Positions 6,196-20,526 of a stretch of 64,000 bases of DNA are shown in pieces. The stretch spans positions 248,001 through 312,000 of the forward strand of contig NZ_JAIGNR010000001.1 in assembly GCF_019711595.1 (NCBI RefSeq), given 5' to 3'. Source of the DNA: Qipengyuania sphaerica (GTDB lineage: Bacteria > Pseudomonadota > Alphaproteobacteria > Sphingomonadales > Sphingomonadaceae). Numbering within the stretch: position 1 is the stretch's first letter; each line of letters begins with the position of its first letter. Under the pieces are notes generated by a model. The model had not been told where the DNA came from and did no database searches. It saw nothing but the letters and a program-made list of their open reading frames with translations. The position numbers and the translations under genes were made by a program.

Positions 6196-6289
<94 letters not shown>

Positions 6290-6426
6290 GCCTTTTCTGG
6301 CTTTTCCTGATAGTTCTCCCAGCCAATACAATCCTTAGGATTTGCGGGCCCTTCTCGTTCCGGCCTGTTGCTTGCTGTTCCTCCCCAGCCGCGCTAGTGT
6401 GTGGTAGAAAGTGTGGGAGCAAATGT

Positions 6427-7608
6427 ATGGGCAGTCTGACAGCGACGGCGGTGAAGGCAGCGAGCGAGCCGGGACGCTATGGCGACGGGGACGGTTTATT
6501 CCTGCTTGTCGGCAAAGGCGGAGCGAAAAGCTGGATGGTGCGAATCCAGAAAGATGGGCGGCGTCGCGACATCGGACTGGGTAGCGCCAGCAAGGTTCCA
6601 TTGAAGCTGGCGCGTGAGCGGGCCATTGCGGTTCGAGAGCAAGTAGAGGCGGGAATCGATCCCGTTGCCGAGCGCCGCAAGGCGGCTGGTATTCCTACGT
6701 TCCGCGAAGCTGCGAAGCTCGTGCATGCCGAGCACAAGGCAAGCTGGAAGAACGCGAAGCACAAAGCGCAGTGGCTCTCCACGCTGGAGAATTATGCCTT
6801 CCCCGCATTTGGCGATCGCTCGGTTGCGCAGATAGACGCGGCTGCGGTTCGCGATGCCTTGGCAGCAATATGGCTCGCCAAGCCGGAGACCGCGCGCCGA
6901 TTGCGGCAGAGGATACGAACAGTGATCGATTGGGCAGTCGCCAAGGGATACCGCGATAGCTCGCTGGCAATGCCTGTGATCGACAAGGCGCTACCAAAGC
7001 AGCGTGCAAAGGTCCGCCACCATGCAGCGATGCCTTATGCCGAGCTTCCCGTATTTATGCGTGTTTTACGGGAAACGGAGAGCATGGGGCGGCTGGCATT
7101 GGAGGCCGTTATCCTAACTGCCGCACGCTCGGGCGAGGTGAGGCTAGCGACTTGGGACGAAGTCGATCTGGATGCCGCCACCTGGACTATTCCAGCCGAG
7201 CGCATGAAGGCGGGGCGCGAACATGTTGTCCCGCTTTCCACTCCAGCGGTTGATCTCTTCAAACGCTTGAAAGCGCACCGGCGCGATGGTGACGGTCCAG
7301 CCCTTGTTTTCCCCGGCATGAAGCGTGGCAAGCCGCTCAGCGACATGACTCTCACGAAAGCGATGCGCGATATGGACAGGAGCGAAACACCGCACGGCTT
7401 CCGGAGCACGTTCCGCGATTGGGTTGCGGAGCAGACGACCTTTCCGGCTGATCTGGCAGAAGCGGCGCTCGCCCATGCGGTAAGCGACAAGACCGTGGCC
7501 GCCTACCAGCGAGGAACTATGTTGGAAAAGCGAAGAGAATTAATGGCTTCCTGGGCTGACTACTGTGACGGGATTGGCGATCAAAAGATCGTTCGCATCG
7601 TTGTCTGA
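6427..7608 (+). CDS. Tyrosine-type site-specific integrase (P4/DUF4102 class)
   Basis: A 393-residue recombinase that should integrate and excise the island at the tRNA-Ser(CGA) 3' end. The N-terminus carries the DUF4102 arm-type DNA-binding domain ([24 protein letters not shown]...[15 protein letters not shown]). A SAM-like core-binding region follows, then the catalytic domain. The catalytic arginine is in [12 protein letters not shown] near residue 233, the box HGFRST near 321, and the nucleophilic tyrosine in VAAYQRG near 359. The full set looks active. The ATG at 6427 follows about 140 bp after the tRNA. A much longer open frame runs back through the tRNA but is non-coding. The class is certain; target specificity is inferred from position. 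Confidence 0.95.
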
Positions 7609-9706: not shown

Positions 9707-9712
9707 CTTGAG

Positions 9713-9770
9713 GTCAGCAATCGGGTCGTCAGCCGATCGTCTTCTCCTCGCACCTCGGTAAAAGCGTCGC
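9713..9770. repeat. Island repeat copy 1 (left half)
   Basis: It starts GTCAGCAATCGGGTCGTCAGC and continues through a CTTCTCCTCGCACCTCGGTAA-like middle, but lacks the GGGTGGAAAGCGGAC end. It lies 6 bp after the stop of the 9395 gene. It is a truncated member of the family best seen at 10130-10216. Confidence 0.65.
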
Positions 9771-9786
9771 CTAGAAGGGCAATAAT

Positions 9787-9951
9787 TCATCTATTTTTGC
9801 GGGCCGTCAGAAGATTGGAAACCCGCTCAGAAAAAAGGCCGCTGAAAAAAGCAAAAAGTAATGTTAGGGGCAAATTATCAGAGAAAAAACTGAGAAATGC
9901 CGCAGCAATTAAGCTAGTTGCCAAAAAAAATATATTTGCCTCAAGTTTCAT
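9787..9951 (-). CDS. Small hydrophobic protein, 54 residues
   Basis: ATG at 9951 to TGA at 9787 encodes a 54-residue protein. It has two hydrophobic stretches (NIFFLATSLIAAAFLSFF and LPLTLLFAFFSGLF) and a basic C-terminus (TARKNR). GGAG lies 10 nt upstream of the ATG. The coding strand is very AT-rich for this genome, like a recent import. It sits between repeat copies 1 and 2, the same setting as the other array genes. No family was recognised; a small membrane protein, possibly toxin-like, is only a guess from size and hydrophobicity. Confidence 0.5.
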   Translation of the reverse strand: MKLEANIFFLATSLIAAAFLSFFSDNLPLTLLFAFFSGLFSERVSNLLTARKNR

Positions 9952-10129
9952 CTATTAAATACTCCGCCCCAAAGCTGTCGACACACCCAGCTGGCAACAA
10001 TTGGCCTTGAGTTGTGCTAGCTCGCCACAAACATTGCAACCATTGTGATGCCCAAGATAGCAGCGAACACTGCCAATACCCGCAGCATACGACTGGTCGC
10101 ACCTGGGCGGTTACACGCACTACTCTCAG
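9952..10129. other. Gene-poor stretch in the repeat array
   Basis: No convincing gene is seen here. A fragment GTGCTAGCTCG near 10014-10024 resembles the middle of the island repeat and may be a decayed copy. A 23-codon minus-strand hydrophobic reading frame (10017-10088) lacks support. Confidence 0.4.
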
Positions 10130-10216
10130 GTCCGCAATCGGGTCGTTAGCTGCCCGTCTGCTCCTGGCGCACCGCTAGCTCGGTGAAACCGTCACGAGAT
10201 TGGGTGGAAAGCCGAC
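10130..10216. repeat. Island repeat copy 2 (full length)
   Basis: An 87-bp unit. The left box CCGCAATCGGGTCGTTAGC is followed by a middle with GTCTGCTCCTGGCG and CCGCTAGCTCGGTGAAAC, then the right box TGGGTGGAAAGCCGAC. Left and right ends GTCCGC/GCGGAC are short inverted repeats (one base changed on the right here). Compare copies at 10362, 10887, 11447 and 11848. Confidence 0.85.
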
Positions 10217-10254
10217 ACATCCATCAGAACGAATATGCACCAGCAGATTTTTGA

Positions 10255-10345
10255 GCGGGAGGGACTCACGGGCGGGAGTCGAACCCGCCAAGACGAAGCA
10301 TTGCTGTTTCGCCCACGCCGACCGTGTCAGAGCCAAACTTGGTCT
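10255..10345 (-). other. tRNA-like remnant with a perfect T-arm
   Basis: On the minus strand GGCGGG-TTCGACT-CCCGCC (10271-10289) is a perfect T-stem with a canonical T-loop. It is followed by CCGTG, which can pair with an upstream CACGG to make a short acceptor. Only about 33 nt lie between these elements, too few for a normal D-arm plus anticodon arm, and no normal anticodon stem or CCA is seen. I read it as a degraded or minimal tRNA-like structure, not a working tRNA. Confidence 0.35.
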
Positions 10346-10361
10346 AGCTAATCGTCGCTAA

Positions 10362-10447
10362 GACCGCAATCGGGTCGTTAACGGCCCGTCCGCTCCTGGG
10401 ACTTGGCTAGCTCGACGAAGCTGTCACGAAGTGGGTGGGAAGCGGAC
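10362..10447. repeat. Island repeat copy 3 (full length)
   Basis: An 86-bp unit with left box CCGCAATCGGGTCGTTAAC, middle CCGTCCGCTCCTGG and GGCTAGCTCGACGAAGC, and right box GTGGGTGGGAAGCGGAC. Only about 145 bp separate it from copy 2, with the tRNA-like remnant between. Confidence 0.85.
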
Positions 10448-10487
10448 ATTGCGTTGCTTCCTTCTGCGAATGAAATAAGCTCAGCCG

Positions 10488-10880
10488 ATGGTCGATAAAG
10501 CATTGAGAGATATTCGTGTGCTCTATGACGGAGGAGTATCGCGAACCGGTTGGGGAGGATGCGTTCGTAAAGAGGACGTCCTACTCTGGGCCAAAGAGAG
10601 CGACCTTTCGATTGAAGAAACGTTCGATCAAATCGCAGTCCTACTCTCCCGTGGCTATATGGACCGCGACTTTGACTGGGATTTTTGCGATGCGGCAGCC
10701 AATGACCTCTTCGGGGTGTTGATGGAGTTTTGCACTGATCGCAGTCGAAAGGTTGAAGAGCCGAAACAGTTTTGGAAGTTCTATCTAGCGTTCGACTACA
10801 GTGAGACTGTTGCCGAGGAAAATGCGGAGGAAGCAGCGCGCACCGAAATCAGCGAGTTTCTAGCTGCGCTTCCTCAGTAA
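10488..10880 (+). CDS. Hypothetical protein, 130 residues
   Basis: A soluble, acidic, largely helical protein with several Trp and Asp residues (GWGGCVRKEDVLLWAKES, MDRDFDWDFCDAAANDLFGVL, KQFWKFYLAFDYSETVAEENAEEAARTEI). No transmembrane segment, signal or recognised motif is present. It lies wholly between full repeat copies 3 and 4, the stop 6 bp before copy 4. The coding frame is clean and codon use looks protein-like. It resembles the small immunity or antitoxin proteins often carried in accessory arrays only in size and acidity, so no function is assigned. Confidence 0.6.
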   Translation: MVDKALRDIRVLYDGGVSRTGWGGCVRKEDVLLWAKESDLSIEETFDQIAVLLSRGYMDRDFDWDFCDAAANDLFGVLMEFCTDRSRKVEEPKQFWKFYLAFDYSETVAEENAEEAARTEISEFLAALPQ

Positions 10881-10886
10881 GCTAAT

Positions 10887-10971
10887 GACCGCAATCGGGT
10901 CGTTAGCGGCTGGTCCGCTTCTGGTACACCGCTAGCTCGGGGAAAGCGTCGTCAAAGGGTGGAAAGCGGAC
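10887..10971. repeat. Island repeat copy 4 (full length)
   Basis: An 85-bp unit. It has left box CCGCAATCGGGTCGTTAGC, middle GGTCCGCTTCTGG and CCGCTAGCTCGGGGAAAGC, and right box AGGGTGGAAAGCGGAC. GTTAGCGG and CCGCTAGC inside it can form an 8-bp stem with one G-U pair. It separates a plus-strand gene on the left from a minus-strand gene on the right, 1 bp from the latter's stop. Confidence 0.85.
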
Positions 10972-10972
10972 G

Positions 10973-11425
10973 CTAGTCATCGAGTAGCCACTTCGACACA
11001 TCAGGTTCCATCCAGCCCAAGTCCTCGCGCAGACCAAAAGCATCGCATTGCCGCTTGAGCGTTTTCGTGGCGAAGTCGTAAGCCATTGCGTAGCCACGGT
11101 CGAAGTCAGTCTCACCAGACAGCCCCTCAAGATGCTCCTTCATTTCTATCACGGTGTCGCGGAGCATCAGGGCGTGAGGTGAAGGTTGGGTGACCTGCAG
11201 CGAACTCGCCGCATAGCGAAGGACGTAAGGCTTATCGCTTGGCGTGCGGCTCGGCACCTCAGCACCGAAGAACGCAACGAAGCAGTCATAGGCGTCAATG
11301 TCGTCGTCACCCCAACAGTGGACGACGACACCGTGTTCGTATTCGCCGTCAGTCGGGTTTCGCAACCGAACCATTGTGCCGGGAGCTAAATAACGGTCGA
11401 GCGAATCTTCTTTAGTCATTACCAT
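10973..11425 (-). CDS. Hypothetical protein, 150 residues
   Basis: Start chosen at ATG 11425 (MVMTKEDSLDRYLAPG); an ATG two codons later is equally possible. The open frame continues upstream only by reading through repeat copy 5. The protein has a beta-rich N-terminal part, APGTMVRLRNPTDGEYEHGVVVHCWGDDDIDAYDCFVAFFG, that looks like a small SH3-like or CAP-Gly-like barrel. A helical C-terminus follows (LMLRDTVIEMKEHLEGL...FATKTLKRQCDAFGL). It has no signal or membrane segment. It is carried singly between repeat copies 4 and 5, opposite in strand to its neighbours. Function unknown. Confidence 0.6.
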   Translation of the reverse strand: MVMTKEDSLDRYLAPGTMVRLRNPTDGEYEHGVVVHCWGDDDIDAYDCFVAFFGAEVPSRTPSDKPYVLRYAASSLQVTQPSPHALMLRDTVIEMKEHLEGLSGETDFDRGYAMAYDFATKTLKRQCDAFGLREDLGWMEPDVSKWLLDD

Positions 11426-11446
11426 GTTTTGGACACCAGTGCCGAT

Positions 11447-11532
11447 GTCCGCAATCGGGTCGTTAGCCGACTGTCTGCTGTTGGCTGGCGTTATGCCCCG
11501 CAAATCAGTCGCGAAATGGGTGGAAAACGGAC
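11447..11532. repeat. Island repeat copy 5 (full length)
   Basis: An 86-bp unit with left box CCGCAATCGGGTCGTTAGC and right box ATGGGTGGAAAACGGAC. The middle is more diverged (GTCTGCTGTTGGCTGGCGTT). It lies between a minus-strand and a plus-strand gene, immediately upstream of both starts, so promoters for both may lie in or beside it. Confidence 0.85.
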
Positions 11533-11554
11533 ATCGAGCGTGTACGATTTGCGG

Positions 11555-11845
11555 ATGACTGGTCGCCCCAAGTTCAAGCTTTCTAGACTTCGCGAAATTG
11601 GTTGGGCGAAGTGGGACCCAATCGGGATGAGTGGGACCGAAGGTTGGCCCGAAGATGAATACGACCGTTATCTACTTCAAGCGGCTGGGCGCCTGTGGAA
11701 CGGCGCGAGCCGACAGGAAGTGGCGAGCTACTTGGTCAGTATCGAAACTGATTACATGGGCCTTGGCGAGGCACCGGGCATTCAGCAACGGGCAAATGAA
11801 GTTGCCGACGCTCTGAGTAACTATGTCACTGAGCTACGCGCGTAA
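11555..11845 (+). CDS. Hypothetical protein, 96 residues
   Basis: The true start is probably ATG 11555 (MTGRPKFKLSRLREIGW), because the longer frame upstream is the translated repeat copy 5. The protein is soluble, with an N-terminal basic segment and a helical body: DEYDRYLLQAAGRLWNGASRQEVASYLVSIETDYMGLG. In other proteins a body of this type (a helical YDxYLLxxAxxL...VxxYLxxIExxxMGL) belongs to small uncharacterised accessory proteins often placed near toxin or defence genes. I make no functional claim. It is bounded by repeat copies 5 and 6. Confidence 0.6.
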   Translation: MTGRPKFKLSRLREIGWAKWDPIGMSGTEGWPEDEYDRYLLQAAGRLWNGASRQEVASYLVSIETDYMGLGEAPGIQQRANEVADALSNYVTELRA

Positions 11846-11847
11846 TT

Positions 11848-11932
11848 TCCAAAATCGAGTCGTCACCAGCCCGTCCGCTCCTGACACAGCGCTAGCTCGG
11901 CAAATCAGTCACGAACTGGGTGGGAAGCAGAC
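11848..11932. repeat. Island repeat copy 6 (full length, diverged left box)
   Basis: The left box is altered (AAAATCGAGTCGTCACC), but the middle CCGTCCGCTCCTGACAC and GCGCTAGCTCGGCAAATC and the right box TGGGTGGGAAGCAGAC are kept. It separates a plus-strand gene from a convergent minus-strand gene. Confidence 0.75.
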
Positions 11933-11933
11933 A

Positions 11934-12302
11934 CTACCGTTTCTCTCGGAACGGATGGTCCGGATTGTCGAGAATGAACTTCTCCACCTCGCGGAGATGC
12001 TCGGGATAGGGGGCAATTTTACGCGATCGGGTGTTCGTGTGAAATCGAAAGCCCGCTAACCAAAGCAACTCCACCTTCCTCCATTGTTTCACGTCCGATT
12101 TTTTCGGCGCTTTGAAGGATCGACCCATATAGTGTGCTTCCTCACCGCAATCTGGACAGGTGGCTTCGCTCTCTTCGGAAAGCTTCCACGATTTTCGACA
12201 ATCGAAACATGCGTGAGCGGTGAGATAGGCTGGGCCGCCTTCTCTTGCAGGCGGAGTAAACCCTTGGACCTTGCGGTAACCAAGCTTCTTCCGAATTTCC
12301 AT
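11934..12302 (-). CDS. Zinc-ribbon hypothetical protein, 122 residues
   Basis: A basic protein with a zinc-ribbon-like pair of cysteine knuckles, HACFDCRKSW and ATCPDCGEEAHYMG. A hydrophobic strand/helix follows (VELLWLAGFRFHTN) with a charged end, and it contains the motif SFKAPKKSDVKQWRKVELL. This arrangement is typical of small nucleic-acid-associated zinc-ribbon proteins. ATG 12302 was chosen; a TTG at 12359 inside the repeat copy 7 boundary would add 19 residues. It lies between repeat copies 6 and 7. Function unknown. Confidence 0.6.
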   Translation of the reverse strand: MEIRKKLGYRKVQGFTPPAREGGPAYLTAHACFDCRKSWKLSEESEATCPDCGEEAHYMGRSFKAPKKSDVKQWRKVELLWLAGFRFHTNTRSRKIAPYPEHLREVEKFILDNPDHPFREKR

Positions 12303-12359
12303 CCGCTCGTGTTTGTTAGGAGGTTGCGGCACAGGCTGATAATGGCGCTCAATCGTCAA

Positions 12360-12422
12360 GTCCGCAATCGGGTCGTTAGCAGAAAGTCTGCTCCCAGCCG
12401 TCCCATTTGTCGAAATTGGTTG
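12360..12422. repeat. Island repeat copy 7 (right end degraded)
   Basis: Begins GTCCGCAATCGGGTCGTTAGC like the intact copies, then GTCTGCTCCCAGCCG. The right box is degraded to a weak CGAAATTGGTTG match. It is the last member before the 12476 gene. Confidence 0.65.
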
Positions 12423-13495: not shown

Positions 13496-14980
13496 CTAAA
13501 AGTTCACCTGTGCTCCTAGCAGAAGAACCTCCGTATTGGCTTCCTGGCTTGACCAGCTTGCACCATTTGGCAGGTTTCCGCCGCTGAGGAAGTTGAGGGG
13601 CACGAAGCCGTCGACATGGATATATTCGGCAAACAGGTTGACGCTTGCCGCGGGATAATATGACACTCCAGCGACCCACTGGTCTTGCTTTTCCCAAGGG
13701 GCCCCGTCGGCTCCGGCCCTGAAGCGGCTGAATTCTGCCGAGAGGGCCAGGCGATATTGGCCGAGAGGTGCGGTCGGTGGGCCAAATCCATACCGGCCAC
13801 CGATTGTGAAGCTTTCGGTCTTGCGCGCGGCATATTGGCTGAGCGGGTTCGTCGGTTCGGGAACCGCCGAGCCAGGCCATTCCTTCGTCGTGCTTGCATA
13901 GTCGCCAAGCAAGGTAATGCGGCCGGAAAGGACCTTGGCATAGGCAGCCCAAGCCGGAACATTGTCCTCGCAGGGCATGAAGTGCACTACCGGGTAAGCC
14001 TGGCAATATGCGCTGCCATGAAGATAGCTTGCGCCGGCCAGCAGCGTATCCCGGTTGCCGAGGGGCAATGTGTAGCTACCGTCCAGCGCGAAATTATTGA
14101 TTTTCGATGGTACCGCGCTGCCTCTTACAGGCGCATTTGCCGCGCGGAACTGGGCACCCCCTTGCACCGCCATGGCGCGCAGATGCAATCCATGATCGAA
14201 ATAGGCGAATTGAGCGCCATAGGCGAGCCCACCAAAGGCGTGATAGCTGGTCGAATTGGTGAACGGACTGACGGTGTCCATCAGCCCGAATGGTACGTCA
14301 AGCTTACCAATGAGGGCGTAGACCGGGCGTTTCTCAAGGTTGCCCCACATCACCCAGCCACGCCTGAGTTGTATCTGGTTGCGCGTGAGCCCCGTGATTG
14401 TACCGCTGCCGAAGCTCTGCTGTGGGTCATAAAGCATTTCGGCATAGCCGTTGAAGTCTCCCGGCAGACGAGCGGTGACGGCGAGCTGAGCGCTGTGGAT
14501 CACCGCTTCCGATACCTGCTTGCCGACCTGATTATTCGATGTTGGATGACGCATCAGATAGCCGAAGGTGTCGGCTCGGTTGCTGGATTGCCAATTGGCA
14601 AGCACCGTCAGTCCACCCGAAACAGTTACAAGCTGTTCGAGTTCTCCTGCCTCAACGGCTTGCAACTGCGTCAGCGGTCGCACAGTTATTCCTTCGGCAT
14701 GATCGAGAATACGCGCTGCATAAGAAGCGTTGGTGCCGACTAGACGATCGGATTGCTGCTCTGCCCCTGACGCTGTCGCCGAATCTTCGGAAAGCGGCTC
14801 ACTTTGCGCCCGTTCTTCCTCGAGCGTATCGATCCGTTCGCGCAAGGAAGCGTTCTCCTCTTCAAGCCGCTCAAGCCGCTCGAGGATTGCGTCTGTGGAT
14901 GGAGCGTCTTGTGCCTGTACCGGTTGAGCCAGCAAGGAAATGGCAGAAGCCAGCACCGGTGCAACGAGGATATCTTTCAT
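13496..14980 (-). CDS. Outer-membrane beta-barrel with N-terminal coiled coil (LbtU/FapF-like porin)
   Basis: A 494-residue exported protein. Residues 1-23 are a signal peptide (MKDILVAPVLASAISLLAQPVQAQ). Residues about 30-60 form a coiled coil (ILERLERLEEENASLRERIDTLEEERA). From about 120 to the end, alternating strands with aromatic girdles end in a C-terminal VLLLGAQVNF strand, typical of a barrel ending in phenylalanine. The core GKLDVPFGLMDTVSPFTNSTSYHAFG resembles LbtU-type siderophore porins; the coiled coil plus barrel layout also resembles FapF of the Fap amyloid pathway. The ATG overlaps the stop of the upstream barrel gene (ATGA). Export of a product or uptake of a solute are both possible. 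Confidence 0.75.
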   Translation of the reverse strand: MKDILVAPVLASAISLLAQPVQAQDAPSTDAILERLERLEEENASLRERIDTLEEERAQSEPLSEDSATASGAEQQSDRLVGTNASYAARILDHAEGITVRPLTQLQAVEAGELEQLVTVSGGLTVLANWQSSNRADTFGYLMRHPTSNNQVGKQVSEAVIHSAQLAVTARLPGDFNGYAEMLYDPQQSFGSGTITGLTRNQIQLRRGWVMWGNLEKRPVYALIGKLDVPFGLMDTVSPFTNSTSYHAFGGLAYGAQFAYFDHGLHLRAMAVQGGAQFRAANAPVRGSAVPSKINNFALDGSYTLPLGNRDTLLAGASYLHGSAYCQAYPVVHFMPCEDNVPAWAAYAKVLSGRITLLGDYASTTKEWPGSAVPEPTNPLSQYAARKTESFTIGGRYGFGPPTAPLGQYRLALSAEFSRFRAGADGAPWEKQDQWVAGVSYYPAASVNLFAEYIHVDGFVPLNFLSGGNLPNGASWSSQEANTEVLLLGAQVNF

Positions 14981-16050
14981 CGCTTGACCTCCAGCGGCGC
15001 GGATAAGGTAACGGCGAGGTCGGGAGCATTCTCGGTGAGCCCAACCGATAGCCCGAGATCCAGCAACATCCGTCGGCTGGCGATCACCGATGCACCGAAG
15101 GAGACCGAGGCGGAGGTTCCGCCTGTGCCTTCGACGCGCTGCCCGGACAGGCGAACATCCTCGAAGAACTGCTGGTCGAAGCGTATCCGCAGCGACGTTT
15201 CGGGCGATGCTGCCAGATAGGTCGCTAGCGAATAACCCCAGCGATCACCCGGATCGATCCCACCCTCCGAAAAACGCGAGTCGTAGGAAACATGTCCGGC
15301 GAGGACGAGCGGATCGAGCCGCTGGCTAACCGAAAGCCCGGCGCCGATGCCGGGGAAACCTCCTCCTAGCAATCCTTCTCCGGCTTCCCTGTCGGCTGTA
15401 CCCAGATTGCCACTGACGCTCCCAATCACGCGCGGAGTGGACCGGTCGCGACCAGAAATGACGTGGCTGAGTCCAAGGGTTACATCACCGATAGCCGATG
15501 CATTGCGCTCGACATTGGCAACCGGGCTACCTGCCAGACTCAGCACGTCCTCGCGAAAGGCAAAGCGATAGGGAATGGAGACATCGAGCTGTGAATTGGC
15601 TGGCAGGCCAATGCGGGCGCCAAGGCGAGCTTGAAGAAAGGAATGGCGCTGTTCGCTCGAAACCACTTCGGGCACACCGCCGACCATGACCAGCAGCGGG
15701 TCGCTTCTTGCGTCGAAGGCGTAGCCGAACGAGGGCGTGATCTCGATCGAGCCAGGGGAGATCAGTGCCGTTCCTCCTTGGATCAGGGTCTTCTCAAGTG
15801 CCCGCTCGACGTCTGCTGGAATGGGTTCGGTCGGGAGCAAGGAGGGGGGGTGTCGCTCGGCCTGCTGCGTTACGAGCAGGAGGCGCTCCAGTCGCTCCAG
15901 CCTCGCGGAAAGTTGGGCGATGACTGCATCGCGCTGTGCAAGCATTTCGGCCAGATCGGCGTTCGCGCCGGGCTCGTCTTGTGCTCTCGCGGGTTGGGCC
16001 AAGCACAGCGCGACAACGAGAAGCGCTGAGAGTTCGCGCATTCTCCTCAT
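14977..16050 (-). CDS. Outer-membrane transporter-like barrel with N-terminal coiled coil
   Basis: A 357-residue protein with a signal peptide (ELSALLVVALCLAQPARAQ) and a leucine-rich coiled coil at about residues 32-66 (LAEMLAQRDAVIAQLSARLERLERLLLVTQQ). The beta-rich remainder is of the phenol-degradation MetA / 'transporter' barrel type (ALISPGSIEITPSFGYAFDARS, LGARIGLPANSQLDVSIPYRF, DLGLSVGLTENAPDLAVTLSAPLE). Such proteins sit in the outer membrane. It overlaps the C39 protease gene upstream and the second barrel downstream by ATGA junctions, so the three are co-translated. Two coiled-coil barrels beside a C39 protease is the notable arrangement. The substrate is unknown. Confidence 0.7.
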   Translation of the reverse strand: MRRMRELSALLVVALCLAQPARAQDEPGANADLAEMLAQRDAVIAQLSARLERLERLLLVTQQAERHPPSLLPTEPIPADVERALEKTLIQGGTALISPGSIEITPSFGYAFDARSDPLLVMVGGVPEVVSSEQRHSFLQARLGARIGLPANSQLDVSIPYRFAFREDVLSLAGSPVANVERNASAIGDVTLGLSHVISGRDRSTPRVIGSVSGNLGTADREAGEGLLGGGFPGIGAGLSVSQRLDPLVLAGHVSYDSRFSEGGIDPGDRWGYSLATYLAASPETSLRIRFDQQFFEDVRLSGQRVEGTGGTSASVSFGASVIASRRMLLDLGLSVGLTENAPDLAVTLSAPLEVKR

Positions 16051-16682
16051 GGCCGCACCATCGTGAAGGCGCGTTCGTCGAGTGCGAGTTCACCCTGGTG
16101 GGGCGCTTCGTTGTCGGCGAGACCATAAGGTCGGACGACAAAGCCAACTCTTCCCAATTGTGCGTTTTCGATCCAGGCTCGCTCAAAGCGGCTTGCCACA
16201 ATCGTCCGGTTGCCGAAGGCCGGATCGGCCAACAGGACTTCCTGTCCGATACGACCGCGATAGATCACGAAGTGGGGAAAGCCGGTGAGATTGACCGGCA
16301 CGATCACCGGTGCGCGTTTGTCGAGTTCAGTTAGCGACAATCCTCCAAGGCCGATGCCCTCATAGCCAAGTCGTCTGGCAACCCTGCGCAGGTCGAGTAA
16401 CGAGAAGCCATGCCGAGCGCGCACGATCCACGGGTGCTCAAGATATTCCGGCCGGTCGACAAGGAGCGCGGCCACTTCTCTTTCGGTAATGGCTTCTCCG
16501 TGCTGGTAGCGCAACAGAGTGGCGAGCGCCGCAGCGCCGCAACTCAGGTCCCATTGCTGTACTACAACGCCGGTTTGACGCAGTTCGACCAGTGAGCGGA
16601 CCGGTCCGGCGTCGGCATTTGCAGGTGAGCTCGCACCCAGGCTCAACAAAAAACCCGCCGCACCGGCAAGGTAACCCTGCAT
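16047..16682 (-). CDS. Periplasmic C39-family cysteine protease (FapD-like)
   Basis: A 211-residue precursor with a signal peptide (to about residue 23, ASSPANADA) and a stand-alone peptidase C39 domain, with no ABC transporter. The catalytic cysteine is in QQWDLSCGAAALATLLRY (C48), the histidine in GFPHFVIYRG, and the aspartate in LLADPAFGN; all three are present. The conserved lead glutamine of the oxyanion hole is Q42 or Q43. C39 enzymes cut after double-glycine-type leaders; the exported relatives, such as FapD, act in the periplasm. AAGGAG lies 8 nt upstream of the ATG. The neighbouring small exported protein carries a leader-like LTDEVLDQITAG motif and is the obvious candidate substrate. 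Confidence 0.85.
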   Translation of the reverse strand: MQGYLAGAAGFLLSLGASSPANADAGPVRSLVELRQTGVVVQQWDLSCGAAALATLLRYQHGEAITEREVAALLVDRPEYLEHPWIVRARHGFSLLDLRRVARRLGYEGIGLGGLSLTELDKRAPVIVPVNLTGFPHFVIYRGRIGQEVLLADPAFGNRTIVASRFERAWIENAQLGRVGFVVRPYGLADNEAPHQGELALDERAFTMVRP

Positions 16683-16705
16683 GGTCTCACTCCTTTTGTG
16701 AAATT

Positions 16706-16740
16706 GGCGCGGCTGGCCCGCAGAGGATTCAAGCCGCGCC
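16706..16740 (-). promoter_or_regulatory. Intercistronic stem-loop between exported peptide and C39 protease genes
   Basis: GGCGCGGCT (16706-16714) and AGCCGCGCC (16732-16740) form a perfect 9-bp stem with a 17-nt loop in the 77-bp gap. On the minus strand it is followed by AATTTCACAAAAGGAG, not a U-run, so it is not a classical terminator. It could protect or partly terminate the upstream transcript so that the small exported protein is made in excess. Confidence 0.5.
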
Positions 16741-16759
16741 CAAAGCGGTTCCGACTACC

Positions 16760-17140
16760 TTAGGGGCAGTCCACGCATTCGATCGGATTGTCGTTGCGAC
16801 CTGCTGCCCAAGGGCCTTCGAGCCCGGGGACTTGGCCACCCGAGCCTGTTTCCTTGCCAAACAGTTCGAATATCGCCGTCAGACTACGCCCAAATGTCGG
16901 GTGACACATACCGAGGTCGGTGCAGATGAACGTGTCTGCATCCTTGCCGGGATTGTCGATTCCTTCGAATTGGAGTTTGCCATTGGGCAGCAGTAGATCG
17001 CCCGCGGTGATCTGATCGAGCACCTCGTCAGTGAGAACCACCGGGGCCAACACGGCTTCGCCGCCCTGCGTCTCGCCGGTGTCTGCAAGAGCCGGACCCG
17101 CCATTGCCAAGGCGCCGGTCAGAATAAGCATCTTCTTCAT
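16760..17140 (-). CDS. Small Sec-exported protein with double-glycine-like motif
   Basis: A 126-residue precursor. MKKMLILTGALAMAGPALA is a Sec signal peptide cut before D20. Residues 36-47, LTDEVLDQITAG, match the L-S/T-x-x-E-L-x-x-I/V-x-G-G pattern of leaders recognised by C39 peptidases, with AG in place of GG. The remainder is glycine- and proline-rich with four cysteines (CTDLGMC and ECVDC). GGAGGA lies 8 nt before the ATG, and the first gene of the operon has the strongest ribosome site. It is the likely substrate of the C39 protease next to it. No known family was recognised, and it lacks the repeats of FapB/FapC. Confidence 0.7.
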   Translation of the reverse strand: MKKMLILTGALAMAGPALADTGETQGGEAVLAPVVLTDEVLDQITAGDLLLPNGKLQFEGIDNPGKDADTFICTDLGMCHPTFGRSLTAIFELFGKETGSGGQVPGLEGPWAAGRNDNPIECVDCP

Positions 17141-17264: not shown

Positions 17265-17281
17265 CATCATCAATTATGATG
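17265..17281. promoter_or_regulatory. Dyad in the divergent promoter region
   Basis: CATCAT-CAATT-ATGATG is a perfect 6-bp inverted repeat in the 214-bp space between the exported-protein operon (minus) and the LuxR/LAL regulator (plus). The rest of the space is AT-rich. It is a plausible operator for the divergent regulator, by position only. Confidence 0.4.
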
Positions 17282-17354: not shown

Positions 17355-20252
17355 ATGATTTTGGGGCACGGTTTCGTCGGGCGCAGCGCGGAGTTCGACC
17401 AGTTCGAATCCTTGCTCGATGGGCTGAATGAGGGCTCCGGGGAAACGCTCGTTGTTTCCGGAAGCGCGGGAATTGGTAAAACGGCCCTCGTCAATCATTT
17501 CCGCCATCTGGCCGAGGATCGTGGGGCCATGACGTGCTGGGTCGGATTTCCCGAGCAATCCGATTGTCCTCCATTCTGGGGCTGGATCGAGGTTTGCCGT
17601 CAACTTGACGCGACTGGATGTGCACCGGAGGCCATGGCACTGGTGGACGCGATGACCCAAAGCGAGGTTCGTTCGACATCGCGTTCGCAGCCGCTGATAT
17701 TCGATCGCTTGCTGCGTCTCCTCAGGGAGGCGGCAGCATCGCACCCGCTCGCCCTGTTCTTCGACGATATCCAGTATTCCGACATCGCCTCGGCCAAGCT
17801 TCTTGATATCGTGGCCAGCGAGGTACGCCACCACCCGATCCTGATCGTCATCACCTTTCGCGATGGCGAAACGCAACCCTCCATTGGGCGCGGCCGACCA
17901 GCGCGTCAGTCGACGCTGGCCTTGCGGGCACAGCGTATGGTTTTGCGCGGGATGGACCAACTGGAATCCGCTCAATTCTGCCGCGAGCTGGCGTCATGGA
18001 CGCCCGAAGCACAGATAATAAGGCGCCTTCACCGTCAAACTGAAGGCAATCCACTGTTCCTCAGGCAGATCGTTCAATCGCTGCTCGACCAAGGACATAT
18101 TGCGGATGGCGTTGCGGTGTTGCCGGATCGGATAACCGTGCCCGAGGGCATCACCGAGGCGATCGCCATTCGACTCGAGCAAGTCAGCCACCGCTGTCAG
18201 CAGACACTCATGAATGCAGCCATACTAGGTCGGACCTTCGAGCAACTCGTGCTCATGCGGCTCGACACAGAGTTTCATCCCCGGCTTCTGGACGAGGCAG
18301 CAAAGTGCGGCCTTGCGCGCCCCACCGAAGCAGCACTTGGTCGCTGGGAATTCAATCACGCTCTGATCCGCGAGGTGCTGTATGATCGCTTGGCGCCCAT
18401 CCAGCGGCTGCGGGCCCACGCGGATGCCGCTGCGGCGATCGAAGCTGTCTATGGGTCCGAAAACCCGCATTCCCTATCCGCGCTCGCCTATCACGCGTTT
18501 GAAGGACAAATCTTCGTTGGGGCGCAAAGGGTCATTGAGCTTGCGCGCAAGGCCGCCAAACACGCGATGAGCGTTACAGCGTACGACGATGCTGCCGCGC
18601 AATTTCGATTGGCGCTTGAGTGCTTTTCGGTTCCGGGGATCGATAATGTGACAGGCAAGATCGATGTCGCACTCGAACTCGCCGAGGCCGAAAGGTCTGC
18701 CGGGGACAATCTCGCGGCAATCAGGACAGCCCGCGAAGCAGCTGGCTGGGCGCGGTCGTCGGGTGACTGGCCGCGGTTCGCTGCCGCGACTCTGCAGTAT
18801 GAAGCCGCACGATGGCAACCGGGACTGCCAAGCGAAGAATCCATCGAGCATCTTGAGCTGGCATTGAACCACGCCGAAGAGATTCCAGACGAGACCGTGG
18901 TACAGCTGCACTGCAGTCTCGCTCGCGCCATACAGTGGAGCGGTCGGTTAGAGGCTGCACGAGAGCAGGGGCTACGCGCCATCGAAATGGCGCGCGAGCT
19001 GGGTGACCAAGCCTTGCTATGCGATGCGCTCGACCAAGGTACCTGCGCCTTCAACACACTTCCCGGATCGGTCGATTTGCGCTTATCCGTGTGCCGCGAG
19101 GCCGTTGCGATTGCGCGTAAGCTCGAAGACAAATTCCGGCTTGCCACCATGCTGGTCGATTTCGGCTCCTGTTCGGCCCAAGTCGGTAACTTTGAAAGTC
19201 TGCGGGAGACACACCTCGAACTCAGGGGACTCGCACGAGAACTGGCGCAGCCCCACTTTCAGTATGTTTCGCAGCACTGGGAGACTACCTTGGCAATGCT
19301 GGAGGGCGATCTTGCGGAAGCCATTCGCTCCGCCTCGGCAGCTTTGGCAATCGGACGCAAGATCTCGGGCGCAAACGCCCAGGGTGTTTATGGGATGCAG
19401 ATGTTCCTGATTGAAAGAGAGCGCGGTGCGCTACAGCAGGTTGCAGGTCTCGCAAGAAGTCTCGGGAAAGATGCAGAACAGAACATCTGGCGCCCCGGAT
19501 ATATGCTCCTTCTCGCCGAAATCGATGAACTCGACGCGGCTCGTATCCAGCTAGACGATATTCTGAAGGGCGGTTTAAATGCCATTCCCAAGGATGATCT
19601 GTTCATACTCACCCTCGCGTTTATGGCAGAAACGATCTGGCATACTCGGACCTCGGCTCCCTGCGAGCATATCTTTTCCATGATGGAGGCGGAATCCGGC
19701 AACGCGATCATCTCCGGACCCGCTTCGCTCTGCTTTGGACCGGTCGATCGGGCCCTGGGGCAATTGCTCGCGAGCATGGGGAGATTTGCCGACGCGAAAG
19801 AATTGTTCGAACGAGCATTGCAGCAAGCCGAGAGCTGGGACAGCAAGCCAATGATATTGAGGGTTGCATGTGATTATTGCGATGTCTTGCTGGTCGAGGG
19901 GACACCTACAGGCATCAAGCGTGCGAGAGACCTGGAAGCCAAGTTTGCAGGCCTAGCGCACTCGGCCGGCATGGCCTCTCTCGTCAACCGCTTTACCCGA
20001 ATTTCGGCTACGCTGCGAAAATTGGGTTGCTCGCACGGGTTTGACGAATTGACGGCGAGAGAAGTTGAGGTTTTGCGCGAAATCGCTGCCGGTGCCAGCA
20101 ATGCGGAGATCTCTCGAAATCTTGGTATCACCCTGCCGACCGTAGCGACACACGTCCGTAACATCCTGGGTAAGACAGAAAGCAAGAACCGTACTGCCGC
20201 GGCGGCGTATGCGCGACATGTGGGCCTCGCTGGCTTTGACGCCGACCGATAA
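17355..20252 (+). CDS. LAL-type LuxR-family regulator with AAA/NACHT-like ATPase
   Basis: A 965-residue multidomain regulator. The N-terminal ATPase has Walker A GSAGIGKTALV (about residues 36-46) and a Walker B LALFFDDIQYSD (about 138). A winged helix and long helical TPR-like repeats of about 500 residues follow. The C-terminus is a LuxR/GerE helix-turn-helix (FDELTAREVEVLREIAAGASNAEISRNLGITLPTVATHVRNIL, about 895-945). Proteins of this MalT/LAL layout bind a ligand, oligomerise with ATP and activate transcription. GAGGAG precedes the ATG. It is divergent to the C39/barrel operon and 16 bp before a DUF4242 gene, so both are likely targets or partners. The inducer is unknown. Confidence 0.88.
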   Translation: MILGHGFVGRSAEFDQFESLLDGLNEGSGETLVVSGSAGIGKTALVNHFRHLAEDRGAMTCWVGFPEQSDCPPFWGWIEVCRQLDATGCAPEAMALVDAMTQSEVRSTSRSQPLIFDRLLRLLREAAASHPLALFFDDIQYSDIASAKLLDIVASEVRHHPILIVITFRDGETQPSIGRGRPARQSTLALRAQRMVLRGMDQLESAQFCRELASWTPEAQIIRRLHRQTEGNPLFLRQIVQSLLDQGHIADGVAVLPDRITVPEGITEAIAIRLEQVSHRCQQTLMNAAILGRTFEQLVLMRLDTEFHPRLLDEAAKCGLARPTEAALGRWEFNHALIREVLYDRLAPIQRLRAHADAAAAIEAVYGSENPHSLSALAYHAFEGQIFVGAQRVIELARKAAKHAMSVTAYDDAAAQFRLALECFSVPGIDNVTGKIDVALELAEAERSAGDNLAAIRTAREAAGWARSSGDWPRFAAATLQYEAARWQPGLPSEESIEHLELALNHAEEIPDETVVQLHCSLARAIQWSGRLEAAREQGLRAIEMARELGDQALLCDALDQGTCAFNTLPGSVDLRLSVCREAVAIARKLEDKFRLATMLVDFGSCSAQVGNFESLRETHLELRGLARELAQPHFQYVSQHWETTLAMLEGDLAEAIRSASAALAIGRKISGANAQGVYGMQMFLIERERGALQQVAGLARSLGKDAEQNIWRPGYMLLLAEIDELDAARIQLDDILKGGLNAIPKDDLFILTLAFMAETIWHTRTSAPCEHIFSMMEAESGNAIISGPASLCFGPVDRALGQLLASMGRFADAKELFERALQQAESWDSKPMILRVACDYCDVLLVEGTPTGIKRARDLEAKFAGLAHSAGMASLVNRFTRISATLRKLGCSHGFDELTAREVEVLREIAAGASNAEISRNLGITLPTVATHVRNILGKTESKNRTAAAAYARHVGLAGFDADR

Positions 20253-20268
20253 AAGAAAGGACCAAGTA

Positions 20269-20526
20269 ATGCCCTTGTTTCTAATTGAAAGGCAATTCGC
20301 CGAGAAACTGGAAATTACGCCCGAAGGCGTGGAGGCGATCGGCGGGATCAACGAACAGGCGGGAGTTCAATGGTTGTATTCCTTCCTGAATGCTGACCAG
20401 ACAAAGACCTACTGTCTTTACGAGGCAAGAAATCCCGACGACATCCGCAGAGCGGCCGAAATGGCGGGCATTCCGGCAGACAAGATCGTCGAGGTGTCCA
20501 AAATCGATCCCCATTCGGCGAAATAA
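20269..20526 (+). CDS. DUF4242 (nickel-binding-like) protein
   Basis: An 85-residue ferredoxin-like-fold protein of the DUF4242/SCO4226 type. The pattern LIERQFAEKLEITPEGVEAIGGINEQAGVQWLYSFLNADQTKTYCLYEARNPDDIRRAAEMAGIPADKIVEVSKIDP matches the family's strand-helix-strand pair and the conserved KTYCLYEA. One characterised Streptomyces member binds nickel; here the activity is not known. AAGGA lies before the ATG at 20269. It follows the LAL regulator by 16 bp and is almost certainly co-transcribed with it. Confidence 0.8.
   Translation: MPLFLIERQFAEKLEITPEGVEAIGGINEQAGVQWLYSFLNADQTKTYCLYEARNPDDIRRAAEMAGIPADKIVEVSKIDPHSAK

Follow-up and report, generated by a model that had tools for sequence, protein, structure and literature searches.

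What is exported by a bacterium whose neighboring genes encode a small Sec-exported protein, a stand-alone protease of the C39 family and two outer-membrane barrels? The question is raised by the minus-strand unit 17140-13496 of a 64,000-nucleotide stretch of the Qipengyuania sphaerica genome (hereafter, the window), where these genes follow each other in the order given, the C39 gene overlapping that of barrel 1, and the latter that of barrel 2, by 4 bases each (Table 1). The initial annotation had described four coupled genes, a C39-type leader ending in AG on the exported protein and, on the whole, a candidate for an undescribed system. The four genes are indeed present, and together with the divergent regulator gene they stand in identical order in a locus (L027) of the same family but a different genus. 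From the observed gene order, the predicted folds, the conservation of the leader and the co-occurrence of the genes we infer, as the probable reading, an export pathway of two steps dedicated to one small protein, which would pass through Sec, lose its leader to the C39 protease in the periplasm and exit via barrel 1.

The leader motif of the exported protein, LTDEVLDQITAG, occupies its residues 36-47, and the layout of the motif in this and related exported proteins is what we take to be that of the classical double-glycine (GG) leader. The protein belongs to no Pfam or NCBIfam family, and a scan of genome contigs with its sequence found no relative. Alignment of the window and L027 proteins gives 10 identities in 19 aligned positions (52.6%) before the AG boundary and 66 in 79 after it, the step in conservation falling exactly at AG. 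The predicted mature product, in which no repeats are evident, is the most conserved segment of the two loci (83.5% identity, as compared to 69% for the C39 protease, 64% for barrel 2, 53% for barrel 1, and 52% (51.9%) for the regulator).

The unit recurs in the order to which the window's organism belongs. The order-level set comprised 61 loci (62 places minus the window and two weak places, G395 and G224, plus two places of G053), and in 51 of them a barrel-1 homologue accompanies C39. With the window included, an immediately adjacent Sec-type exported open reading frame (ORF) was found in 56 of 62 loci and was lacking in six. A loose leader-like motif, formulated only once the data had been inspected, is present in 51 of the 56 adjacent exported ORFs (shuffled sequences: mean 8.9, maximum 17), a strict one in 36 of the 56 (mean 5.1, maximum 13), and none of 19 exported ORFs located far from C39 carries the motif. 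To avoid post-hoc bias, an unsupervised expectation-maximization (EM) motif was derived from 73 training proteins, from which the window, L027 and L015 had been withheld. Its consensus is APVSDAELAEQRGG; 71 of the 73 training proteins score above 99% of the null, and two (L028, L031) do not show the motif. In the held-out proteins of the window, L027 and L015 the motif selects VVLTDEVLDQITAG, VALSDSDLDRVTAG and KLLDDVQLDALTAG, respectively (p ~0.005, 0.008 and 0.002), the first being the AG-leader 14-mer of the exported protein, assessed against shuffles of that protein.

A search at the class level yielded 45 places in 40 of 385 genomes, and the ten best after the window (43-60% identical) were used further. 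In the group of 13 loci formed by these ten, the window, L027 and L015, a leader-type ORF was recognized by reading beside or near C39 in 12, at a distance of up to several kilobases in L135 and L137. The leader-type ORF of L144 ends in VARG instead of AG or GG, that of L142 has no visible signal peptide near the contig edge, and in the 3.7-kb contig of L138 no leader-type ORF was found.

When named genomes were scanned with eight C39 sequences of the 13-locus group, 102 relatives were retrieved, and the best 80, picked by C39 similarity alone, are referred to below as the named loci. They belong mostly to Proteobacteria (Geminicoccaceae, Methylobacter, Nitrosomonas, Nitrosospira, Noviherbaspirillum, Caulobacter and others); a few entries from assembled metagenomes carry the names of other phyla, e.g., Bathyarchaeota and Thermoleophilia, which may be binning errors. 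A FapF-like barrel is encoded in 75 of the 80 loci, among them all 56 that are at least 7 kb long, and in 72 of the 80 the match is below 1e-20. The barrel-1 profile weakly matches barrel-2-type porins (5 of 14 loci, 1.5e-5 to 9.6e-4), but the count hardly depends on such cross-matching, because 72 of the 75 matches are below 1e-20. ORFs with a signal peptide followed by the leader (double-leader ORFs) occur in 61 of the 80 loci and in 46 of the 56 long ones. Forty permuted motifs gave a mean of 2.1 and a maximum of 17 loci; when the seven loci that had also served to derive the pattern are removed, the proportion is 56 of 73; and none of 14 loci around barrel-2 homologues lacking C39 has a double-leader ORF. 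The named loci hold 138 such ORFs, up to six per locus, 120 of them on the C39 strand. The 137 distinct ones give the consensus L-[ST]-x-x-[QE]-[ML]-D-x-[VI]-[TS]-A-G, the conservation of which is partly imposed by the search pattern of the same form. Their mature parts fall into 62 clusters with a median length of 71 residues, and ten picked clusters gave neither a Pfam match at 0.01 nor an NCBIfam match above the cut-off. As a separate observation, several double-leader proteins in loci of the Geminicoccaceae type (L137:4067-5142, L159:2022-3439) are encoded on the strand opposite to C39.

As to whole genomes, 22 of them were searched with a profile of the signal peptide and leader built from 33 rows, some of which came from the searched genomes. 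The profile gave 38 matches below 1e-3, of which 36 are no more than about 7 kb away from C39. None was found in the 11 congeners without a C39 match, where the best values range from 0.001 to 0.7 and those near 0.001-0.01 mainly cover the signal-peptide part. In the window's genome the exported protein of the operon is the only match below 1e-3. Two weaker ones (E 0.012 and 0.077) were considered as further substrates and rejected, one being lipoprotein-like and the other an exported ORF without an AG or GG leader. Taken together, these data support the view that the exported protein, the C39 protease and the FapF-like coiled-coil barrel form a conserved unit, as far as sequences can tell, and the AG motif, suspected at first in a single protein, proves to be conserved far beyond the window's genome.

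The protease matches the C39 peptidase family PF03412 with 48.3 bits (cut-off 22), and it is the only protein of the genome to do so. C39 is the sole domain over the cut-off in its 211 residues, with no ABC transporter fused to it. Q42, C48, H137 and D153, presumably the catalytic residues of the family, are invariant in all 12 aligned sequences (the window included) and in all eight close ones; a stand-alone C39 protease with its full catalytic set stands as first described. The signal sequence ascribed to it is less certain: the N-terminus, MQGYLAGAAGFLLSLG, is hydrophobic and signal-like by reading, but it has no Lys or Arg.

The two barrels, initially taken together as coiled-coil exporters, have to be separated. 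An N-terminal helix with a heptad-like pattern is predicted in both. The AlphaFold2 model of barrel 1 (mean predicted local distance difference test score, pLDDT, 88) shows a coiled-coil helix at 29-64, a second helix at 79-91 and the barrel; its best match among solved structures is FapF (Z 29.6, root-mean-square deviation 2.0 A, 259 aligned residues), followed by the COG4313 family (Z 25.5). The alignment begins at FapF residue 88, beside the plug helix A89-G101 (PMC5557850). Barrel 1 is thus predicted to possess the fold elements of FapF, namely the coiled coil, plug helix and barrel. The model of barrel 2 (pLDDT 72) has 16 long strands and fits many general porins about equally well; the LbtU model NF033652 gives 56.8 bits for it and 63.7 for its L027 homologue at a cut-off of 90. 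Matches to barrel 2 were found in 30 of 296 genomes of the order. Beside C39 its homologue occurs only in L027, and in none of the other 60 order-level, ten class-level and 80 named loci; conversely, all 14 loci fetched around barrel-2 homologues, the window and L027 excluded, lack C39. Considering this distribution and the porin fold, we rejected barrel 2 as a second exporter or core part and regard it as an accessory porin. Of the proposed pair, therefore, only barrel 1 travels with C39 and resembles FapF.

The export could proceed in the following way. The LuxR-type ATPase regulator, probably bound at the palindrome, would turn the operon on. The 126-residue precursor is strongly predicted from its sequence to cross the inner membrane via Sec and to lose its signal peptide. 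In the periplasm the C39 protease would recognize the second leader by L-12, T-11, L-7, I-4, A-2 and G-1 and, as leader conservation and co-occurrence suggest, cut after AG, freeing an acidic product of 79 residues with four cysteines. This product would leave the cell through barrel 1, which by analogy with FapF may be trimeric, with its coiled coil and plug acting as the gate, barrel 2 being an added porin without a core role. Outside, the product would most likely act as a disulfide-containing surface or fiber subunit or as a signal; this is the least certain step.

A number of observations weigh against this scheme. The window leader ends in AG and not in GG, and its EM score, 7.9 bits, lies below those of 71 of the 73 training proteins. 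The protease N-terminus lacks the Lys and Arg that are present in close relatives such as L015 and L143, and signal peptides were called by a heuristic instead of SignalP. In 19 of the 80 named loci, ten of them at least 7 kb long, no ORF passes the leader test, although three (L162, L219, L225) contain near-motifs that fail the pattern. The leader protein of L015's own genome (G077) reaches only 0.002 in the genome-wide profile. The two remaining matches to this profile, in two Methylobacter genomes (L241:854-1105, L242:769-1059), lie far from C39; both ORFs are double-leader by reading, and for this reason substrates can be unlinked from the C39 locus.

The Fap system of Pseudomonas (FapA-F) resembles the window in its periplasmic C39 protease, in its barrel with coiled coil and plug and in the leader of FapE, which is of like design. 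FapC secretion needs FapD activity and is abolished by a FapD active-site mutant, only FapE showed complete N-terminal processing, and GG and GA motifs of FapE were pointed out (PMC5557850); the target of FapD is stated to be unclear or open (PMC5557850; PMC6173800). A search for FapE (NF058559) in 398 phylum-level genomes gave matches at 22 places in 20 genomes, seven of them over the curated cut-off. The proteins carry motifs such as LKDAEMAELRGR soon after the signal peptide, of the type D/E-x-x-L/M-x(3)-RG[G/K/R], and 21 of the 22 places score above 99% of the null; 19 of the 22 ORFs were chosen with a motif condition, and the 19/22 and 19/19 scores lean toward the motif. Of the three remaining places, L100 (26.8) and L102 (22.1) fit, as opposed to L104 (5.2), where the match to FapE is partial. 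FapE and the Fap-like neighbors in the window's order carry a sister of the AG motif, ending in RG[G/K/R].

On these grounds we narrowly favor a broader proposal, in which double-leader export is general in Proteobacteria: precursors with a C39 leader behind their Sec signal peptide, cleavage by a periplasmic C39 protease and exit through a FapF-type barrel. The leader would stay constant while the cargo behind it is freely swapped, much as in bacteriocin arsenals. Fap and the gonococcal nap island discussed below would then be special cases, and the target of FapD would be the RG[K/R] leader of FapE. A point against the export scheme itself is that the processing reported in Pseudomonas consists in missing FapE peptides across the first ~70 residues, the cut site being unmapped (PMC5557850). 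The leader motif shared with FapE makes the question of the FapD target directly testable at named residues, and it provides a rule for finding cargo in genomes. If the proposal is true, a single pathway would unite amyloid export with the gonococcal nap peptides and with many secreted proteins that are still unknown; should the leader prove portable, it could serve the secretion of chosen small proteins from Gram-negative laboratory bacteria.

Membership of the window in Fap proper was considered and rejected: the FapD (NF058616) and FapF (NF058560) models give its protease and barrel 1 62.9 and 27.3 bits, far below their cut-offs of 330 and 700. In the C39 tree, drawn with a midpoint root, the 13 sequences chosen by identity (the window, L027, L015 and the ten class loci) cluster with support (100/98), separately from the C39 of FapE loci and from that of loci with Fap-like genes in the window's order. 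The window's genome has no match to FapE, and none to FapC in a search that matched in no control genome either, FapB having been left outside the genome-wide search; the initial statement that FapB and FapC are not present is to that extent uncontradicted. A product that uses the same route but polymerizes on the surface as a fiber or amyloid, alone replacing FapB, FapC and FapE, is possible but doubtful. The FapF type of barrel 1 suits it, as do two of ten scanned order-level neighbors that are FapE-like (73 and 16.7 bits) and one of the ten that is FapC/FapB-like (59 and 34 bits), all below cut-off, and the C-terminal CxxC reported for FapC in several species of Pseudomonas (PMC3684753) has a counterpart in the product's CVDCP. 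Yet the product is short, acidic and devoid of evident repeats, its genome gave no match to FapE or, in the search that matched in no control genome, to FapC, and its C39 falls outside the branch holding that of FapE loci. It may be noted separately that Fap-like loci of the window's order, e.g., L024:7317-8207 and L029:5239-6102, encode proteins of FapC/FapB-like and FapE-like kind that stay under the curated cut-offs, and that some of them adjoin large exported proteins rich in Asn, Ser and Gly.

The closest described parallel in design is the nap island of Neisseria gonorrhoeae, which contains the GG peptides NapABC, the C39 protease NapP, the FapF homologue NapF and a putative regulator; its authors propose periplasmic cleavage and export of the Naps by NapP and NapF, and suggest NapH for their passage through the inner membrane (PMC11798529). 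The window likewise has a GG/AG peptide, a stand-alone C39 protease and a FapF-like barrel together, and a putative regulator is present in both. It differs in that a Sec signal peptide evidently precedes the leader of its precursor, and in that its product is acidic and has 79 residues, while the Naps are cationic with a predicted mature length of 16-36 residues (PMC11798529), a comparison made with the published description. That the product is, like a Nap, a bacteriocin or an autolysis or signaling peptide exported by protease and barrel is rather unlikely: the nap island itself and the tandem, diverse paralogues in many relatives, which with their 62 mature clusters resemble peptide arsenals, speak in its favor, but besides the differences in charge and length the four operon proteins match no immunity or holin family of Pfam or NCBIfam.

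Two further systems share parts with the window. The Fil system of Acinetobacter, a putative pilus, where FilA is called the Fil pilus subunit (PMC11784438), provides the best NCBIfam matches of the protease (FilB) and of barrel 1 (FilC), but at 94.3 of 475 and 31.7 of 630 bits, and the exported protein and barrel 2 match no Fil model. Peptidase-containing ABC transporters, which serve the export of double-glycine bacteriocins, have in common with the window the C39 fold, as indicated by the match of the protease to 6mpz, and the logic of the leader; the window protease differs from them in having no transporter part. Since co-located FapD/FapF homologues in five further phyla (PMC6173800) and the nap island (PMC11798529) have already been described, the machinery is best regarded as a variant of the Fap/Nap kind, and to call it undescribed was too strong. 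What is new is the breadth of the double-leader substrates and the leader common to FapE; neither was evident in searches of the open-access (PMC) literature, subscription journals being outside the scope of the search.

Some C39-like domains act without cleavage (PMC5557850, PMC6173800), and the leader might accordingly be an uncut binding tag, by which the C39 protein, as a periplasmic chaperone, passes the substrate to the barrel. The invariance of the Q, C, H and D positions, the effect of the FapD active-site mutant (PMC5557850) and the conservation jump exactly at AG make this quite improbable. A chance motif in genes that are neighbors without joint function, for which the moderate significance of the window motif taken alone (p ~0.005) could be adduced, is highly improbable in view of the 61 named loci against a permuted mean of 2.1 and of the genome-wide matches, 36 of 38 of which lie at C39 loci.

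Table 1. Features of the proposed export operon and its surroundings in the window
Feature	Position	Strand	Remarks
Exported leader-bearing protein, 126 aa from ATG	16760..17140	-	No Pfam/NCBIfam family; L027 homologue 73% identical
Sec signal peptide, residues 1-19, MKKMLILTGALAMAGPALA	17084..17140	-	Direct reading and heuristic signal-peptide scan
Second leader, residues 20-47, C-terminal part LTDEVLDQITAG, predicted C39 cut after G47	17000..17083	-	EM motif, held-out
Predicted mature product, 79 aa, pI 4.2, 4 Cys, C-terminal CVDCP	16763..16999	-	
Intergenic stem-loop between substrate and protease genes	16683..16759	-	Possible differential-expression element, weak
Stand-alone C39 cysteine protease, 211 aa, hydrophobic signal-like N-terminus (FapD/FilB-like)	16047..16682	-	
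Barrel 1, FapF/FilC-type outer-membrane barrel, predicted coiled-coil helix 29-64, plug helix 79-91	14977..16050	-	
Barrel 2, porin fold with N-terminal coiled coil, LbtU-family-like below cut-off, accessory	13496..14980	-	
Palindrome CATCATAATTGATGATG, between divergent operon and regulator, likely operator	17265..17281	no strand	
Divergent regulator, 965 aa: AAA_16 ATPase, tetratricopeptide repeats (TPR), LuxR-type (GerE) helix-turn-helix	17355..20252	+	
SCO4226-like (PF14026) small protein, downstream of regulator	20209..20526	+	

The palindrome CATCATAATTGATGATG has a single exact site in the window's genome, with further matches at two to three mismatches, and a stretch of ~22 bases around it is identical in L027. 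The stem-loop behind the substrate gene has z values of -0.67 in the window, -0.96 in L027 and -0.02 in L139, none of them significant, and values of -4.7 and -5.1 were obtained for the equivalent gap in L141 and L015.

Downstream of the operon, the window and L027 genomes both carry a gene that reads as acetyl-CoA synthetase-like (67% identical), because of which the position of the operon looks common to both and not recently mobile. In L027 this gene adjoins the operon, and in the window a tRNA-Ser gene and an integrase-like ORF intervene. The latter segment, 6196-7608, consists of tRNA-Ser (CGA) and, after it, an ORF that by reading resembles a site-specific integrase, and from about 8 kb of the window onward the G+C content drops; it probably represents a genomic-island edge that separates the operon from the acetyl-CoA synthetase-like gene. 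At 9711-12407, seven imperfect repeats, 232-560 bases apart, are separated by short ORFs. Taken as one family they measure 50 nucleotides, and five of them form an 81-nucleotide family starting near AATCGGGTCGTTAGC; they could represent an integron-like or other cassette array.

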